From Clostridia bacterium (GTDB lineage: Bacteria > Bacillota > Clostridia > UBA1381), in contig JAFZMQ010000032.1 of assembly GCA_017551095.1 (NCBI GenBank), positions 1 through 64,000 on the forward strand: 64,000 bases of DNA, given 5' to 3'. The position numbers and the translations under genes are program-made. The notes under the pieces are model-generated. The model was not told the origin of the DNA, searched no databases, and was given only the letters and a program-made list of their open reading frames with translations. Below, piece by piece: positions 1 through 47,727 of this stretch (positions are counted from its first letter, which is position 1; each line of letters opens with the position of its first letter).

Positions 1-885
1 GGCGGTACATCAAAAACCGCTTTTGCCGTTTGTGAGCATCTTGGTGCAAAGGAAACAGTCTTTGTTTCACGCACAAAAAAGGACGGCTCGGTCACTTTTG
101 ATGAAGCAAAAAGTAAACATCTTGATGCACAGATTATAATAAATACTACACCATCAGGAATGTTTCCGGATACAGATGGTTTGCCTATTCAAATCAGCGG
201 TTTTGATGCTCTGGGCGGTATTATTGACGCCGTTTATAATCCTTTAAGGACAAATTTAGTGCTTGATGCACAGGAAAAAGGGATTTTAGCGGAGGGCGGA
301 CTCTATATGCTATCGGCTCAGGCGGTTTTTGCCTCTTCCCTGTTTTTAGGCAGAAAGCCCGATGAAAGTCTGATTGATTCGGCATATAATGCGGTCAAAA
401 ACGAAAAAGAGAATATCGTTTTAATCGGTATGCCGTCGGCAGGTAAAACAACAATAGGAAAATTGCTTGGCGATACTTTAAATAAAGAGTTTTTTGACAG
501 CGATATTGAAATTACAAAAGAAATTAAAATGTCCATACCCGAATTTTTTAAAAAATACGGTGAGGCGAAATTCCGAGAAATTGAAAAGGAAGTAATATCA
601 AACCTTTCCCAAAAAAGCGGTGTAGTAATTGCAACAGGCGGAGGAGCAGTCCTTAATCCGCAAAATGTCCGCTCTTTAAAGCAAAACGGCAGAATTATCT
701 TTTTAAACAGACCTTTTGAGCTTCTTACGCCAACTCAGGACAGACCGCTATCAACGGGGCGTGACGCTTTAAAGAAGCTATTTGATGACAGATTTTCTAT
801 TTACAAAAACTCTTGTGATATTGAAATACTTGCGGATAAATCGCCCAGGCTAATTTTAGAGGAAATCAAAAAGGAGCTGATTTAA
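1..885 (+). CDS. aroE-aroK: Shikimate dehydrogenase-shikimate kinase fusion (5' end outside window)
   Basis: The reading frame is open from base 1, so the N-terminal, substrate-binding half of AroE lies upstream. Visible are about 130 residues of the NADP-binding AroE half (GGTSKT turn, then NTTPSGM and the GGLYMLSAQA helix), then without a stop a complete shikimate kinase. The kinase has the P-loop GMPSAGKTT, the shikimate-binding DSDIEI and FREIE segments, GGGAV, and the lid arginine in RPLSTGRD. The protein would carry out steps 4 and 5 of the shikimate pathway in the cytoplasm (3-dehydroshikimate to shikimate to shikimate 3-phosphate). The ATG at base 160 lies inside the AroE domain and is not a true start. 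It heads the aromatic operon, and its stop abuts the start of aroQ. Confidence 0.93.
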   Translation, partial: GGTSKTAFAVCEHLGAKETVFVSRTKKDGSVTFDEAKSKHLDAQIIINTTPSGMFPDTDGLPIQISGFDALGGIIDAVYNPLRTNLVLDAQEKGILAEGGLYMLSAQAVFASSLFLGRKPDESLIDSAYNAVKNEKENIVLIGMPSAGKTTIGKLLGDTLNKEFFDSDIEITKEIKMSIPEFFKKYGEAKFREIEKEVISNLSQKSGVVIATGGGAVLNPQNVRSLKQNGRIIFLNRPFELLTPTQDRPLSTGRDALKKLFDDRFSIYKNSCDIEILADKSPRLILEEIKKELI

Positions 886-1329
886 TTGAAAATACTCGTT
901 TTAAACGGACCTAACATAAATATGCTCGGTATTCGTGAGCCTGAAATTTACGGCAGAGAAACCTACGAAGACCTGAAAAATCTTGTAAAAGGCTATGCCG
1001 ATAAAAAAGGCGTTGAAGTCGAGTTTTTTCAGTCCAATCATGAAGGTGATTTGGTAGATGCGGTGCAGAGGGCATATTTTGAAAAGTTTGACGGGATTAT
1101 ATTTAATCCTGCCGCATACACGCATACAAGTATTGCTATCGCCGACGCGGTTAAAGGCACAGGTATTCCTACCGTAGAGGTACACATAAGCGACATCAAA
1201 AAGCGTGAAGATTTCAGACAAGTAAGCTTTATAAGAGATTGTGTTATTTCAAGCGTTGTAGGAAAAGGGCTTGATGGATATAATATTGCGATTGATTTGA
1301 TTTTAAAGCACAGAAAGGACAAAAAATGA
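886..1329 (+). CDS. aroQ: Type II 3-dehydroquinate dehydratase
   Basis: 147 residues, the normal size for the small type II enzyme that dehydrates 3-dehydroquinate to 3-dehydroshikimate (shikimate step 3). The N-terminal NGPNINMLGIREPEIYG carries the family's conserved Asn and catalytic loop Tyr. FFQSNHEGDLVD, NPAAYTHTSIA and EVHISDI are the remaining family blocks, including the catalytic His. Translation starts at TTG 886, directly after the aroK stop, with AAGGAG at 871-876 as ribosome binding site. The stop overlaps the aroA start as ATGA (1326-1329), which implies translational coupling. Confidence 0.95.
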   Translation: MKILVLNGPNINMLGIREPEIYGRETYEDLKNLVKGYADKKGVEVEFFQSNHEGDLVDAVQRAYFEKFDGIIFNPAAYTHTSIAIADAVKGTGIPTVEVHISDIKKREDFRQVSFIRDCVISSVVGKGLDGYNIAIDLILKHRKDKK

Positions 1330-13537: not shown

Positions 13538-13549
13538 CGCTTTTTTTAT
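13520..13549. terminator. Bidirectional terminator between bioY and dinB
   Basis: AAAAAAGCGTC (13520-13530) pairs with GACGCTTTTTT (13536-13546) around a TGTTT loop. The hairpin overlaps the bioY stop and touches the dinB stop. T and A runs on both sides let it act on both converging genes. Confidence 0.85.
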
Positions 13550-14754
13550 TCTATTCCCAAGTCATTATTTATGATATTTGCCTTTTTAATGCTTCCTTTT
13601 CCGTAAGTTTTACGGATTTTATCAATTGCAAGTTCCAAGCTTTCCTCTTTCTTTTCCTCGGCGTCCTCAAACAAGCTCATTTGTCCGCCTATGCTGCTGC
13701 TTACAAAGCCGCTACCCGTGACCGTTAACATTCTTATCGGCTTTTTCATACTCCAATTTGATGTTATAAGCGTTTCTGCTACCTCTGAAATTTCTTTTGC
13801 CAGATAGGTTGGCTTATCCAAATGCTTTTGCCTTGAAATCGTTTTAAGCTCCGTATCTTTGATATGCACCGTTACGACGGTACATTTTACGCCTTTTTCA
13901 CGCATTTTCGCCGCAACATACTCGCACAAAACCAAAAGTCCCTTCCTAATATCTTCAATCCCCAAAAGATTTCGTGAAAAGGTCAAGCCTTTTCCTATCG
14001 ACTTTGCTTCCCTCTCATAGTCAATGCTCATAACAGGCGATTTATCCTCGCCCCGTGCGTATTCCAAAAGGAGAAGCCCCGTTTTTCCAAGCAGTTTTTC
14101 TATAAATGCGTCATCTGCATTCGCCAAATCTCCGATTGTTCGGATATTCGCATTATAAAGCCTTTTTGTCGCACTTTTCCCGATAAAAATCATATCGGAA
14201 ACAGGCAAAGGATAAATTATTTTTTTATAGTTTTCCCTCGAAATCACGGTGGTGGCATCAGGTTTTTTATAATCACTGCCCATTTTCGCAAAGATTTTAT
14301 TAAAGGAAACGCCCACAGACACAGTGATTCCAAGCTCTTTTTTAACCCGTTCTCTTATGGTATTTGCGATTTTTTCACCGTTTCCGAAAAGCTTAGTGCT
14401 TCCCGTTACATCAAGCCAACTTTCATCAATGCTGAATTTTTCAACAAGGTCGGTGAAGTCATAGTATATTTTATTTATTTTCTCGGAATATTCCTCATAA
14501 AGCGTATATCTCGGCGGTACAAGCACCAAATCAGGACATTTTTTCAGCGACTCCCATATAGGCTCTGCTGTCTTTACGCCGTACCTTTTTGCAATTTCAT
14601 TTTTTGCAAGGATTATCCCCCTCCTCTTTTCCGGGTCCCCCGCAACCGCGAGTGGAACATCCCACAAAAGAGGATTTTGGGCACACTCAACCGACGCAAA
14701 AAAATTGTTGCAGTCACTATGCAAAATTATTCTGTCTTTCACGCCAATTTCCAT
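13546..14754 (-). CDS. dinB: Y-family DNA polymerase IV
   Basis: About 402 residues from ATG 14754; a GTG four codons further in (VKDRIILHSD) and a GTG at 14769 are alternatives. The polymerase motifs are HSDCNNFFASVE, KNEIAKRYGVKTAEP, FSIDESWLDVTGS (catalytic acids) and GVSFNKIFAKMGSDYKKP. QMSLF near the C terminus fits a sliding-clamp binding peptide. The enzyme performs translesion synthesis. I see no LexA-type box upstream; instead the start region lies within the repeated structured element (copy A). It may be co-transcribed with the DUF1294 gene. Confidence 0.93.
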   Translation of the reverse strand: MEIGVKDRIILHSDCNNFFASVECAQNPLLWDVPLAVAGDPEKRRGIILAKNEIAKRYGVKTAEPIWESLKKCPDLVLVPPRYTLYEEYSEKINKIYYDFTDLVEKFSIDESWLDVTGSTKLFGNGEKIANTIRERVKKELGITVSVGVSFNKIFAKMGSDYKKPDATTVISRENYKKIIYPLPVSDMIFIGKSATKRLYNANIRTIGDLANADDAFIEKLLGKTGLLLLEYARGEDKSPVMSIDYEREAKSIGKGLTFSRNLLGIEDIRKGLLVLCEYVAAKMREKGVKCTVVTVHIKDTELKTISRQKHLDKPTYLAKEISEVAETLITSNWSMKKPIRMLTVTGSGFVSSSIGGQMSLFEDAEEKKEESLELAIDKIRKTYGKGSIKKANIINNDLGIE

Positions 14755-14909
14755 AGCCTTTCTGCCCACAAAAAGTAGTTTAAAAATTATACTCCGCCTT
14801 ATCTGTGGGCAGGATAAGGCGTATAATGGAAATCATGCACATCGCCGTTTTGCCAAAGGCGAAATATCGGCGGTGCATCTAATATGATTAACGTGATTTT
14901 CACGTTAAT
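14746..14909 (+). repeat. Structured intergenic repeat element, copy A
   Basis: A 164-bp stretch about 90 percent identical by hand alignment to 46936-47097. Read on the + strand it has four parts. First is AATTTCCAT (14746-14754), complementary to ATGGAAAT (14826-14833). Second is a hairpin CGCCTTATC/GATAAGGCG whose loop TGTGGGCAG is complementary to CTGCCCACA at 14762-14770. Third is a long hairpin closed by ATGCAC/GTGCAT with an inner TTTTGCC/GGCGAAA. Last is a hairpin ATTAACGTGA/TCACGTTAAT (14888-14909). It covers the end of the DUF1294 gene and the first codons of dinB. No transposase is present; I do not recognise it as a named RNA or MITE. Confidence 0.88.
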
Positions 14910-15157
14910 ACCTTTCCTAAAAGATAGATAACTCCAAGGTTTAAAAGCATCATCACAGGCACTCCTACCGTGAATTTTACATGTTTGGTTTTGTGTCTGA
15001 AAAACTGCATCCCTAAAAATGCACCGACTCCGCCCATAAAAAATGCCGCTAAAAGCAGAGTTTTTTCGCTTATACGCCATTTTTTATGTATTGCATTGTA
15101 TTTATCAATTCCGTACAGCAGGAAGACTATTATGTTCCATATAACCAAAATTTCCAT
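14900..15157 (-). CDS. DUF1294 family small membrane protein
   Basis: 85 residues from ATG 15157. Pattern: a first membrane helix (ILVIWNIIVFLLYGIDK), then KWRISEKTLLLAAFFMGGVGAFLGMQ and FRHKTKHVKF, then a last helix. This matches the DUF1294 family (DKxxA, GGxGA, HKT blocks), whose function is not known to me. The gene has its own consensus promoter. Its stop codon lies inside the last hairpin of repeat copy A, and dinB follows downstream. The ribosome binding site is weak. Confidence 0.82.
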   Translation of the reverse strand: MEILVIWNIIVFLLYGIDKYNAIHKKWRISEKTLLLAAFFMGGVGAFLGMQFFRHKTKHVKFTVGVPVMMLLNLGVIYLLGKVLT

Positions 15158-15185
15158 ACCCAAAACCGTCCTTTTATACTTAAAA

Positions 15186-15214
15186 ATTATAATAGGACTC
15201 CATTTTATTGTCAA
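15186..15214 (-). promoter_or_regulatory. Promoter of the DUF1294-dinB unit
   Basis: Minus strand TTGACA (15214-15209), 17-base spacer, TATAAT (15191-15186): both hexamers at full consensus, about 30 bases ahead of the DUF1294 start. Confidence 0.85.
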
Positions 15215-18883: not shown

Positions 18884-20692
18884 CTATTCAACTGTAACCG
18901 ATTTTGCAAGGTTTCTCGGTTTATCTACATCAAAACCTTTTTCCGTGCAAACATAATACGCCAACATTTGAAGCGGTATTATTGCAGGTAAAGGCGCCAA
19001 AAGCGGATCAATCTGCGGAAGTTCAACAATATCTCCGTATGCCGCAGTGTCCGACATACATGATGTGAAGCCTATGGTTTTAGCACCTCTTGCCAAAACT
19101 TCCTTTACGTTACTGCTTAATTTATTGCTGATATCCGGATTTGTGCATATTGAAATAACAACCGTTCCGTCATCAATAAGAGCAATAGGTCCGTGCTTTA
19201 ATTCGCCACTTGCATATGCGTCAGAGTGAATATAAGATATTTCCTTTAATTTCAGCGACGCCTCCATAGCCACAATATAGTCAAGCCCACGGCCTAAGAA
19301 ATATATGTCATGTTCATCTGCAAGACTTTTAGCTATCTCTCTGATTTCAGGTGCTTTTTCCAATATCTTTTCTGCTACCTCGTCCATTTTTAAGAGCTGA
19401 TTTTTTAAATCGCTCAACACATGATTCGGAACTGTCTTTCTCTTTTCGGCAAAGTATATTGCAAAAAGATAAAACGCAACAAGCTGAGTGGTATATGCTT
19501 TTGTTGACGCAACGGCAATTTCCGGTCCTGCATATGTATAGAACACATAGTCCGCTTCTCTTGCAACAGATGAGCCCACAACATTTGTTATTGCATAAAC
19601 TTTATTCCCAAGTTTTTTTGCCATTCTAAGCACCGCAAGTGTATCGGCGGTTTCGCCCGATTGACTTACTACTAAAACGGCTGTATCCTTATTTATAAGC
19701 GGCTCTCCGTAACGGAACTCCGATGCCAAGCATACTTCGCAAGGTATCTTTGCCAGAGTTTCAATCGCTTTTTTGCCTACAAGTCCCGCATGGTACGCCG
19801 TTCCACAAGCAACAATAAAAATTTTCTTTATGTCATCAGAAAACTCTATATTATCCAAAACAATATTCAAATCCTTGTCGATTCTGCCTCGTAAAGTATT
19901 CCTTATAGCCTGAGGCTGCTCATGGATTTCCTTTAACATAAAGTGGTCATAACCCTCTTTTTGCGACGCCTGAGCAGAAAACTGCACTCTGTAAATCTCT
20001 TTGCTTATCGGATTTTCATCAATATCGCATATAGCAACGCTATCCTTTTTGAGAGTAACAAATTCGCCGTCGTTTAAGAGATAAACATCACGAGTTTCCG
20101 ACAAAATCGCGGGTATATCAGACGCGATAAAGTTACCGTCGTCGGTGAGTCCTACAATCAGCGGACTATCCTTTCGTACCGCAATTATTCTGTCAGGCTC
20201 TGCTGCTGCAATAACGCCTATCGCATAGCTTCCGTCCAGCTTTTTTGCGGCTTTTCTGACAGCGGTCAAAAGGTCGCCTTCATAATAGTAATCTATTAAG
20301 TTAGGTATAACCTCCGTATCGGTTTCCGATACAAAATTATAGCCCTTTTCTATCAGGAATTTTTTAAGTGCCTCATGATTTTCAATGATTCCGTTATGTA
20401 CTACCGCGATAGTTCCATCCTGATTAGTATGGGGATGTGAATTTTTAGCAGACGGTACTCCGTGAGTTGCCCATCTGGTATGACCTATACCGATATTTCC
20501 ATGTAGTGGCCTACTTTCAAGAATCTCACGAAGTCCGGAAAGTCTCCCCTTTTCCTTTCTTATTGATATCCCGTTATCGTCTAAAACGGCAATACCTGCC
20601 GAATCATAGCCTCGATATTCAAGGCTTTCCAACCCCGAAAGCAGTAATTCGACACAGTCTCTTGTTCCTATGTAACCTACTATTCCACACAT
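18884..20692 (-). CDS. glmS: Glutamine:fructose-6-phosphate aminotransferase
   Basis: 602 residues. N-terminal glutaminase domain with nucleophile Cys2 (MCGIVGYIG), GHTRWATHG and a SETDTE region, followed by two SIS domains (SQSGETADTLA, ASTKAYTTQ) and the C-terminal KPRNLAKSVTVE typical of the family. It makes glucosamine 6-phosphate from fructose 6-phosphate and glutamine. The leader carries a glmS ribozyme, so the message is expected to be cut and destroyed when glucosamine 6-phosphate is plentiful. Confidence 0.97.
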   Translation of the reverse strand: MCGIVGYIGTRDCVELLLSGLESLEYRGYDSAGIAVLDDNGISIRKEKGRLSGLREILESRPLHGNIGIGHTRWATHGVPSAKNSHPHTNQDGTIAVVHNGIIENHEALKKFLIEKGYNFVSETDTEVIPNLIDYYYEGDLLTAVRKAAKKLDGSYAIGVIAAAEPDRIIAVRKDSPLIVGLTDDGNFIASDIPAILSETRDVYLLNDGEFVTLKKDSVAICDIDENPISKEIYRVQFSAQASQKEGYDHFMLKEIHEQPQAIRNTLRGRIDKDLNIVLDNIEFSDDIKKIFIVACGTAYHAGLVGKKAIETLAKIPCEVCLASEFRYGEPLINKDTAVLVVSQSGETADTLAVLRMAKKLGNKVYAITNVVGSSVAREADYVFYTYAGPEIAVASTKAYTTQLVAFYLFAIYFAEKRKTVPNHVLSDLKNQLLKMDEVAEKILEKAPEIREIAKSLADEHDIYFLGRGLDYIVAMEASLKLKEISYIHSDAYASGELKHGPIALIDDGTVVISICTNPDISNKLSSNVKEVLARGAKTIGFTSCMSDTAAYGDIVELPQIDPLLAPLPAIIPLQMLAYYVCTEKGFDVDKPRNLAKSVTVE

Positions 20693-20725
20693 AAATTATA
20701 CTCCTTAATATTTCAGTATAATATC

Positions 20726-20854
20726 GCATAAGCTTTTGTTTTCAGATTACTCCGATATTTGTGCTTATGCTTACGACATATCTGCCGCAGGGCATCCGCC
20801 GAAAATTCGATGCTCCCTGTCCTCGTCAGCCTATGTCGCAGTAGGCTCCGGCGC
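20726..20854 (-). ncRNA. glmS ribozyme (glucosamine-6-phosphate-activated, self-cleaving)
   Basis: Read on the minus strand, the conserved core is all there in order: AGCGCC at the cleavage site (cut expected between A20855 and G20854), TGACGAGG, a GGGAGCATCGA segment, TTCGGCGGATGCCC, and the CGTAAG of P3. P4 is closed by GCATAAGC (20774-20767 region) with GCTTATGC (20733-20726). It sits between a consensus promoter and glmS. The family is well characterised: glucosamine 6-phosphate acts as cofactor for cleavage. Confidence 0.96.
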
Positions 20855-20913
20855 TTCTTTTTCTATTATCGGTTCGACTTACCAAAATTTTTGCGACACA
20901 CCAATACAAGTGT

Positions 20914-45055: not shown

Positions 45056-45757
45056 TTAAGAATAATCTCTTTCTCCGAAGATGGCAGTTCCGACACGAAC
45101 CATGTTCGAGCCTTCCTCTATCGCCATCTCAAAATCTCCGCTCATTCCCATAGAAAGAAATTCCATATCTATATTATCATATTTTGACTTTGAAATGTCA
45201 ATAAATTTATTATATATGTTATGAAAATGTAATCTGTTTGACACGCCTATGTCAATTTTCGGCAGAATAGTCATTAAACCGCATACTTTGACGCGTTTTA
45301 GCTCTTTTGCGTGTTCTAACATTTCATCGAGTCCTTCAAAATCCGTGCCGAATTTCGTTTCCTCACCCGAAACATTTACCTCTATCAAAATTTTAATTTC
45401 GGGTACGCCGTGCTTTTCCGCCTGACGCTCGATTTCGTCCATAAGCTTTATTGAATCCACCGAATGAATCATATAAACCTTATCAATTATATACTTCACT
45501 TTATTGGTCTGCAAATGTCCTATAAGGTGCCATCTTACGCCCTTTTTGACTTTATCGTATTTTTCCAGAATTTCCTGAACTTTATTTTCGCCTATATCGG
45601 TAACGCCAAGGTCGATAGCCTCATTTATCATTTCGACAGGGTGCGTTTTTGTTACGGCAACAAGCGTCACGCAATCCGCACTTCTTCCGCTTTTTTGTGC
45701 AGAAATCTCTATTCTTTTTTTAACTTCTGAAAGATTTTTTGCTATATCCGTCATCAT
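45056..45757 (-). CDS. YggS-family PLP homeostasis protein
   Basis: 233 residues of the alanine-racemase-like barrel. The PLP lysine is in VAVTKTHP; GENKVQEI, WHLIGHLQTNK, SVDSIKLMDEIE and SMGMSGDFEMAIEEG are family blocks. The family is not an enzyme in the usual sense but controls vitamin B6 and amino acid balance. Two ATG codons in tandem (45757, 45754) follow GGAGAAAA. The first overlaps the upstream stop. Confidence 0.94.
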   Translation of the reverse strand: MMTDIAKNLSEVKKRIEISAQKSGRSADCVTLVAVTKTHPVEMINEAIDLGVTDIGENKVQEILEKYDKVKKGVRWHLIGHLQTNKVKYIIDKVYMIHSVDSIKLMDEIERQAEKHGVPEIKILIEVNVSGEETKFGTDFEGLDEMLEHAKELKRVKVCGLMTILPKIDIGVSNRLHFHNIYNKFIDISKSKYDNIDMEFLSMGMSGDFEMAIEEGSNMVRVGTAIFGERDYS

Positions 45758-46932
45758 TTTTCTCCTATGATTATGCTGTCTGTTTCCTTTAATATTCCCT
45801 TTGTATCATCAAATTCCTTTGATATTATTACAGTCTGGTCGGCAATATCGGTATAAAGGATTTTGCACTTTCTCAAAAATGTACCCGATTCTGTACGCAC
45901 CATTACCTCTTTTACGCCATCTTTATTACGGATTGCAGACATGGGAATGCGATACCCCTCATAGCTTTCCAGGACAAGCTCAATTCCCGTAAATCTAAGG
46001 GACAAAACTCCCTCTTTATAAAGTTCGCATTTTATTACAACCACATTTTTTTCCGCACCCGATTCCTCGGCAGATATATAGCTCACAACGCCGTTTGCCT
46101 CAATCCCGGGAAGCTCGGTAAATCGGATTTTTACTTTCTGACCTGTATGTATTTTTGAGGCACTGTCCGATTTTATCGCCGTCATAACATACCATGTCTG
46201 ATTGTTTATAACCTTACAAATCGGTTCGCCTTCGCTTACCGTTGTCTGCGGTTTTGCGTCGGGTATTTTTATTGCATCATATTCCGCAAGATGATAGCCC
46301 AGTATCTCTTTTGGATTTAAAGTTTCCTCTAAACCATCAATATTTTTTGAAAAGACGCCCGACATCTGCGAATAAACATCATTTTTGCCGCTCTGCAAAC
46401 TCGATTCAAGCGACTGCTTTTTGGCTTCGAGATTTTCTATGTTATCTGTTCTTATGTCCTTGACATCGCCTGTTACTATACTGTTTATCTGTGCTTTATA
46501 GCTTTCCATATCGAACAAATCATTCTTATTCGCAGATTTTATGATGTTATTTTTTATTATATCTATATTTTCCTGACTGTTTGAGCCGAAAGAATAAGAG
46601 GAATTTGAAGAATTTTGAAGCTCTGCAATCTTTTGGTTTATGGTATTAAGTTCGGCTAATGTTTGCTCTGAAACATCTCCTGTATATACCGTTGAAAGAA
46701 TACTGTTCTTTTTTACCTTTGTTCCCTCTTGAAGATAGTGATACACTTTCCCGCTTACAGTCGCATTATATACCTGTTCGGTTTTTACAATGTATCCTGT
46801 TGTGACTATCTTGTTTTCATAAACCTCACTAACCGCAGGTTGTGACTTTATAGGTCTTCCAAGATAGCGTACGCCGTAAAATGTAAAGAATACCGCGATA
46901 CAAACAAGGATAATATATAAACTCTTTTTCAT
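45754..46932 (-). CDS. HlyD-like membrane-anchored protein of the division cluster
   Basis: About 392 residues from ATG 46932; ATG 46944 inside repeat copy B is an alternative. One N-terminal membrane helix (KKSLYIILVCIAVFFTFYGVRYL) leads to an extracytoplasmic part. Barrel-sandwich-like strands (TGYIVKTEQVYNATVSGKVYHYLQEG), a helical hairpin (about 120-200) and a second half-barrel (ICKVINNQTWYVMTAIKS, HTGQKVKIRFTELPG) follow. This is the layout of periplasmic-adaptor or HlyD proteins. No partner exporter is nearby; the position before yggS-sepF suggests a wall or division role, which is inference. Confidence 0.82.
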   Translation of the reverse strand: MKKSLYIILVCIAVFFTFYGVRYLGRPIKSQPAVSEVYENKIVTTGYIVKTEQVYNATVSGKVYHYLQEGTKVKKNSILSTVYTGDVSEQTLAELNTINQKIAELQNSSNSSYSFGSNSQENIDIIKNNIIKSANKNDLFDMESYKAQINSIVTGDVKDIRTDNIENLEAKKQSLESSLQSGKNDVYSQMSGVFSKNIDGLEETLNPKEILGYHLAEYDAIKIPDAKPQTTVSEGEPICKVINNQTWYVMTAIKSDSASKIHTGQKVKIRFTELPGIEANGVVSYISAEESGAEKNVVVIKCELYKEGVLSLRFTGIELVLESYEGYRIPMSAIRNKDGVKEVMVRTESGTFLRKCKILYTDIADQTVIISKEFDDTKGILKETDSIIIGEK

Positions 46933-46935
46933 AAT

Positions 46936-47097
46936 AATTTCCATAGACTTTCTGCCCACAAAAAGTAATTTAAAATTATATCTTGCCTTATCTGTGGGCT
47001 GATAAGGCGTATAATGGAAATTATGCACATCGCCGTTTTGCCAAAGGCAAAATATCGGCGGTGCATCTAATTAGTTAACGTGATTCTTCACGTTAAC
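46936..47097 (+). repeat. Structured intergenic repeat element, copy B
   Basis: 162 bp matching copy A at 14746-14909 with about 17 differences. The same parts are present. AATTTCCAT (46936-46944) is complementary to ATGGAAATT (47013-47021). A hairpin GCCTTATC/GATAAGGC has a TGTGGGC loop that matches TGCCCACA upstream. A hairpin ATGCAC/GTGCAT has an inner TTTTGCC/GGCAAAA. A last hairpin GTTAACGTGA/TCACGTTAAC closes it. It lies between engB and the HlyD-like gene, and its edge carries that gene's upstream ATG. A short reading frame runs from inside it into the HlyD-like gene. Confidence 0.88.
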
Positions 47098-47103
47098 TCC
47101 TTT

Positions 47104-47688
47104 TTAAAGCATTGACTCAATCAATTCCCATACCGCCGTCTTGCCGTCGTCATTTTTTGTAGAAAACGGGATCAGGAGGTCATTTTGTGAAAGCTCCAAT
47201 TCCTTTTCAAGCATTTTCATATTCTCTTTAAACTCTTTTTTATTCAGCTTGTCCGTCTTTGTTGCAATAATCACCGCTCCGCCCGTTTGCATTGACCGTA
47301 TCCACTCTAACATCATTTTATCGTCAGATGTCGGGGCGTGGCGTGAATCCACAAGCAGAATTACCTTTTTAAGCTGTTGTCTGCCATGCAGATAATCTTC
47401 TATCATACTGCCCCATTTTTCGATTTCTTCACGGGAACGCTTAGCATAGCCGTACCCCGGCAAATCTACCAAAAAAATTGTGTCATCAATATTATAAAAA
47501 TTGATTGTTACCGTCTTTCCCGGTGTCGCACTCACTCTTGCCAGGGATTTTCGGGAAAGCAGTTTATTTACAAGAGATGATTTTCCGACATTAGATCTCC
47601 CCGCAAAAGCAAATTCTGGAAGTATTTCCCTTGGATATTGTTCCTTTTTTACCGCAGAAACGGCAATTTCAGCATTATGTAAATTCAT
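47104..47688 (-). CDS. engB: Ribosome biogenesis GTPase YsxC/EngB
   Basis: 194 residues from ATG 47688 (GGAGG 5 bases ahead; a longer in-frame start has no site). G1 GRSNVGKSSL, G3 DLPGYGYAK and G4 TKTDKLNK are clear, with the family's SATPGKTVTINFY switch region. It helps assemble the 50S subunit. It has its own promoter and opens the minus-strand run through the division genes. Confidence 0.95.
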   Translation of the reverse strand: MNLHNAEIAVSAVKKEQYPREILPEFAFAGRSNVGKSSLVNKLLSRKSLARVSATPGKTVTINFYNIDDTIFLVDLPGYGYAKRSREEIEKWGSMIEDYLHGRQQLKKVILLVDSRHAPTSDDKMMLEWIRSMQTGGAVIIATKTDKLNKKEFKENMKMLEKELELSQNDLLIPFSTKNDDGKTAVWELIESML

Positions 47689-47727
47689 TTTAACCTCCGA
47701 ATCCGGCATTTTTAATCATCAAATGAT

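Follow-up and report, generated by a model that had tools for sequence, protein, structure and literature searches.

A dispersed RNA element without a transposase that may provide clostridial genes with a bistable ribosome-binding site

The window analyzed here, a 64-kb stretch of genomic DNA from a member of the Clostridia, contains two copies of an element of ~163 bp. Copy 1 lies between a DUF1294 gene (14900-15214) and the dinB gene for DNA polymerase IV (13546-14742), and copy 2 between an EngB-type GTPase gene (47104-47709) and a hlyD-family gene (45754-46932); all four genes are read from the minus strand. A preliminary description had noted two closely similar stretches in the same orientation between minus-strand genes, and pairwise alignment bears this out, since positions 14746-14909 and 46936-47097 are 91% identical from end to end while their flanks are unrelated. 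That description was correct but lacked the sense strand, the exact placement relative to the Shine-Dalgarno (SD) sequence and start codon, and the pronounced RNA structure. On the minus strand, the conserved 27-mer at the "left" end of the element reads TTTGTGGGCAGAAAGGCTATGGAAATT; in every copy of the same genome, three variable bases and then the start codon of a gene come after it. The element is therefore a leader running in gene direction, and the minus strand is its functional (sense) strand in the window. Its parts are as follows:

14746-14909, minus strand: element copy 1, from the P1 3' strand to hairpin I
14911-14918, minus strand: presumed native SD AGGAAAGG, directly 5' of copy 1, within the end of the DUF1294 gene
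14887-14909, minus strand: hairpin I of copy 1, ATTAACGTGA aaa TCACGTTAAT
14836-14877, minus strand: hairpin II of copy 1, TGCACCGCCG...CGGCGATGTGCA, whose 3' arm has a 2-nt bulge (AU)
14826-14834, minus strand: P1 5' strand of copy 1
14805-14820, minus strand: anti-SD strand of copy 1, GCCTTATCCTGCCCAC, doubling as 5' arm and loop of the P2/P3 hairpin
14796-14820, minus strand: P3 hairpin of copy 1, GCCTTATC..GATAAGGC, with a loop able to form a pseudoknot with GUGGGCA
14756-14769, minus strand: conserved core of copy 1, GTGGGCAGAAAGGC, including the element SD AGAAAGG at 14757-14763
14746-14754, minus strand: P1 3' strand of copy 1, ATGGAAATT
46936-47097, minus strand: element copy 2
47097-47105, minus strand: presumed native SD AAAAAGGAG, between the stop of the EngB-type GTPase gene and copy 2
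47075-47096, minus strand: hairpin I of copy 2
47024-47065, minus strand: hairpin II of copy 2
46985-47008, minus strand: P3 hairpin of copy 2, whose 5' arm and loop (46994-47008) are the anti-SD strand
46946-46959, minus strand: core of copy 2 with the SD, GTGGGCAGAAAGTC
46936-46944, minus strand: P1 3' strand of copy 2

Start codons lie 3 nt past the P1 3' strand in both copies: GTG at 14740-14742, probably the native start of dinB, and ATG at 46930-46932 for the hlyD-family gene. Where gene pairs overlap, the upstream reading frame now ends within hairpin I; at copy 1, the stop codon of the DUF1294 reading frame is the TGA of this hairpin (14900-14902). R1, a covariance model of the 3' half, recovered the two window copies at E values of about 1e-21 and no further convincing copy within the 64-kb window. 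In the genome from which the window derives (1.37 Mb in 41 contigs, about 81% complete), BLAST returned seven matches of 88-92% identity, one of them reduced to half, and the covariance model returned ten (E up to 0.01). These counts agree with the earlier expectation of many copies per genome and dispose of the possibility that only two exist.

The placement of the element relative to genes is narrow. Among 170 distinct copies, which were retrieved by the exact core and are consequently biased to conserved copies from genomes that are mostly metagenome-assembled (MAGs), the start codon lies 19-29 nt past GGGCAGAAAGG in 165 and exactly 25 nt past it in 98. Of the sense matches in the regions fetched from HAN068, an Oscillospiraceae MAG (G061), 60 of 61 are followed by a start codon where one is expected, compared to 9.8% of random positions. 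In the modal case the element SD AGAAAGG, which fits the 3' end of the 16S rRNA of Firmicutes, stands 14 nt before the native start codon, a distance of ~11 when counted in the usual SD register. A second SD-like motif occurs in the 16 nt 5' of hairpin I in 57 of 92 copies (62%; control windows, 7.7%), with a peak 6-10 nt upstream, at the place expected of a native SD. No copies were seen inside coding sequence. The 165 downstream genes fall into 141 families, so that they do not form an ordinary regulon; by eye they include those for DNA polymerase IV, TrpRS, DnaK, PGK, Clp ATPases and PurC, and they belong to no common pathway.

Orthologous sites that lack the element show what it separates. 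At an S4-domain (yaaA-type) gene, the genome of the window has AACCACAAATTAGGAG, the element and then TTTATG; this copy is without hairpin I, and its flanks are clear. The same junction is empty in G001, reading AACCACAAATTAGGAG-TATTTT-ATG (AACCACAAATTAGGAGTATTTTATG), and similarly empty in G002 (AACTACAAATTAGGAGAAATCTATG). Empty sites of the same genus thus read AGGAG-6 nt-ATG, compared to AGGAG-element-TTT-ATG in the genome of the window, and the joined spacing between native SD and ATG is near that of a normal SD. Among the same-genus and same-family TrpRS orthologues with readable starts, only that of the window's genome carries the element, and the mnmE site is occupied in G093 and empty in G241. 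All these empty sites come from other species and do not represent strain-level insertion polymorphism. Some copies without hairpins I and II begin at the P2 TTAACG, immediately preceded by an SD, and look as if a deletion had joined the TTAACG repeat in hairpin I to that in P2. The short ATT found at both ends belongs to the element itself, and no consistent target duplication was found in over 90 copies.

Folding calculations gave z values of -6.8 and -6.5 for the two strands, indicating strong RNA structure. The element is composed of hairpins I and II, helix P1 (AAUNNCCAU paired with AUGGNNAUU) adjoining the start codon, the P2/P3 hairpin with a possible pseudoknot, and the anti-SD strand. 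P1, P2, P3 and the pseudoknot between loop and core are formed in 91% of cells, with two-sided changes in 43 cells compared to 17 in shuffles and 1-12 when the pairing is slid; hairpins I and II are paired in 94%, with 44 two-sided changes compared to 11.5. As tallied by cells and not on a tree, most of the helices covary. Mismatches on the sense strand comprise 66 G-U and 46 A-C pairs, a weak asymmetry that leaves room for hairpins formed in DNA. At three HAN068 loci (L038, L193, L202), another 5' module, CCCCGGA..CCTTGTTGTTTCACAATCACGTTA, replaces hairpin I just upstream of hairpin II.

The 5' arm and loop of P3, GCCUUAUCUGCCCAC, are almost the reverse complement of GUGGGCAGAAAGGC, and an alternative structure that sequesters the SD, as in a riboswitch, is present at the sequence level. 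The GCCUU/AAGGC anti-SD helix is intact in 98.6% of cells; since both of its strands are nearly invariant, this pairing cannot covary. Column 18, which P2/P3 leaves unpaired, holds only C or U in 28 of 28 sequences, as a requirement for pairing with the SD would predict, and the minimum-energy fold has most of the SD paired in nearly all of these 28 sequences. Because the anti-SD helix and P2/P3 use the same strand, they are mutually exclusive. In what we call fold (a), P1 would form together with a long duplex between GCCUU(AU)CUGCCCAC and GUGGGCAGAAAGGC that makes the SD inaccessible; in fold (b), the P2/P3 hairpin would hold the anti-SD strand, possibly with the loop-GUGGGCA pseudoknot, and leave the SD free. 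Fold (a) was on average ~17 kcal/mol more stable than fold (b), a value calculated with the pseudoknot left out and with an imperfect P2/P3 alignment register in some rows. Fold (b) would therefore need kinetic trapping, the pseudoknot or a factor.

Element matches were found in 32 of 61 related genomes, and the 19-base core occurs in at least 119 stretches of species genomes; the titles among the matches listed for this core are Clostridia, Oscillospiraceae, Ruminococcus, Eubacterium and unclassified MAGs as well as the isolate Ructibacterium gallinarum (DSM 107454). Individual genomes carry anything from 0 to several dozen copies. HAN068 gave 101 R1 matches, some of them antisense shadows, of which 61 sense copies were checked. 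Distribution in the class Clostridia is patchy (at least 26 of 245 sampled genomes at E up to 1e-5), and in a phylum-wide sample of 348 genomes (E up to 1e-6) the genome of the window was the only match; both counts are minimum values because stricter filters were used. The nearest neighbour of a copy resides in the same genome in 88% of cases compared to 18% with shuffled labels, and copies are 78% identical within and 58% between genomes, figures to which HAN068 contributes most. At least 7 sites are common to two closely related species of a single genus; copies can therefore persist. A few target genes (spoVAD-like, nuoE-like, remA-like) are common to several genomes. In the MAG SIG610 (L101), three tandem copies with cores near 1510, 1678 and 1844 (minus strand), 166-168 bp apart, precede one gene; here the element is inserted into or duplicated onto itself. 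A copy consisting of the 3' half only (L048, ~700-950, plus strand) precedes a putative symporter gene in HAN068 and follows what by eye appears to be a glycine riboswitch and terminator. A full-length copy on an IMG/VR contig (L256, 6880-7100, minus strand) lies in a siphovirus-type tail operon, where the upstream gene ends at the TAA of hairpin I; no relatives of this locus that could provide empty phage sites were found. A phage or plasmid vehicle was rejected, with one genuine viral contig only and no match in phage and plasmid collections.

The preliminary description had proposed a MITE, a REP-like element or a repeated RNA. Our data agree with a repeated RNA and also with a dispersed element that has no transposase gene. 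They do not support a strict MITE, as terminal inverted repeats are absent (the 5' end, ATTAACGTGA, is unrelated to AATTTCCATAGC, the reverse complement of the 3' end), or a REP-like element, as the Y1 transposase does not track the element. Y1 gave no match in the element-bearing genomes G012, G054, G063, G093 and G125, and the Y1 genes retrieved from G061 and G000 have no element core next to them. The reverse transcriptase family RVT_1 was not detected in G000 (81% complete), G004, G012, G061 and G063, the genome with the most copies included; in these five, the host reverse transcriptase expected for a group II intron derivative is missing. Neither enzyme tracks the element, neither was retained as the mover, and a survey of the Y1 and RT families revealed no element-flanked transposase. 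The search of Rfam that had been suggested yielded no Rfam 15 family, either at the gathering threshold or up to E = 5, and no similarity to known introns. Riboswitches of known type were seen elsewhere: a glmS ribozyme/riboswitch in the window (20717-20866, minus strand, 93.9 bits) upstream of a glmS-type gene (18884-20692), and a lysine riboswitch (L008, 8-190, minus strand) at a neighbouring locus of genome G060.

Several further roles were considered and set aside. A leader peptide starting at a GTG in hairpin I, present in 59 of 93 copies, is not conserved, because the length of its reading frame ranges from 5 to over 100 codons. Fusion of an element ATG to the gene has a spacing mode of 12 nt, but 10, 11, 13 and 14 nt also occur, so that the frame is not required. 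Hairpin I is no CRP/FNR-type operator, given its variable loop length. A host-templated end of hairpin I was likewise dismissed: its lower-stem bases covary, yet the consensus ATT/AAT dominates, so that compensatory change suffices.

IS200/IS605-derived and REP elements have subterminal hairpins, as does the element, and make no target duplication; the element differs from them in that it is not associated with Y1 and that its site is functional and not a fixed tetranucleotide. In translational riboswitch expression platforms, alternative helices hide or free the SD. The element shares such helices, but its genes are unrelated, it has no known aptamer, and it is dispersed with high identity within genomes. 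ERIC/RU-1 and Correia/NEMIS are small non-autonomous repeats that are co-transcribed with genes and are described as MITE-like, having inverted repeats and TA motifs (PMC2229807); like them, the element is about 100-170 bp long, dispersed, transposase-free and RNA-structured and may affect the neighbouring mRNA, but it lacks terminal inverted repeats, occupies the gap between SD and start codon and has its own SD. The TAACTGA direct repeats of marine Beggiatoaceae, heptamers in tandem that hardly resemble an SD and lack a long covarying structure (PMC4679880), are similarly abundant immediately before start codons of genes without a functional pattern; the element, in contrast, possesses both an SD and a long covarying structure. 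Neither the core sequence nor the SD-element-start arrangement was found in the open-access literature.

We favor, with moderate confidence, the view that this is a mobile, transposase-less non-coding RNA element of Clostridia that replaces ribosome-binding sites with a bistable one. It would insert between a gene's native SD and its start codon, part the two, and supply its own SD AGAAAGG, thereby making translation of the downstream gene subject to a bistable switch whose state probably depends on co-transcriptional folding or on some factor. We infer such a switch since P2/P3 and the anti-SD helix exclude each other and the SD is paired in the minimum-energy fold; fold (a) would then be the OFF and fold (b) the ON state. 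Position, empty sites, conservation of structure and within-genome similarity are documented by sequence comparison, and the element presumably moves as a unit. Against this reading, a fixed OFF state before housekeeping genes (dnaK, pgk) would be costly. It is possible, if somewhat doubtful, that the element represents a new class of mobile elements directed at translation initiation regions in general. Such elements would act perhaps on mRNA, by way of the initiating ribosome, and the bistable ribosome-binding site they bring would maintain or condition expression of the gene that is entered.

A ligand- or protein-sensing riboswitch-like leader with a large regulon, spread by recombination as something useful and not selfish, would account for the conserved core, the covarying helices, the SD/anti-SD switch and the few targets common to genomes. 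We nevertheless consider it rather unlikely: the functionally coherent downstream genes of a riboswitch regulon are missing, and both the variation in copy number and the similarity of copies within a genome speak against it. Quite improbable in our judgement is a small repeat mobilized by a transposase, with a structure serving DNA transposition and with insertions away from ribosome-binding sites lost. The lack of terminal inverted repeats, the absence of Y1 from several element-bearing genomes, and an SD and spacing whose conservation serves translation and not transposition all count against such a repeat, as does the single HAN068 sense match outside a start-codon context, though neutral sites exist; it would fit the strong terminal hairpin I, the missing coding capacity, the dispersed copies and the weak strand asymmetry of mismatches. 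That native SD and ATG flank the element at a near-normal joined spacing could also point to an insert that removes itself by splicing or is bypassed by the ribosome. This is a very remote prospect for an element that retains an SD of its own with almost constant spacing to the start codon, is not seen in coding sequence and resembles no known intron in Rfam.

For genome annotation, start codons may be called too far upstream where the ATG of the element (ATG GAA ATT NNN ATG) is in frame with the gene. Our findings raise the questions of what recognizes the gap between SD and start codon and which signal flips the fold. In gut Clostridia, the element may be a spreading translation switch of a kind not described before; if it moves as proposed here, dozens of genes in one bacterium would stand behind one switch, and mobile elements can rewire translation gene by gene while the genes themselves are left intact.
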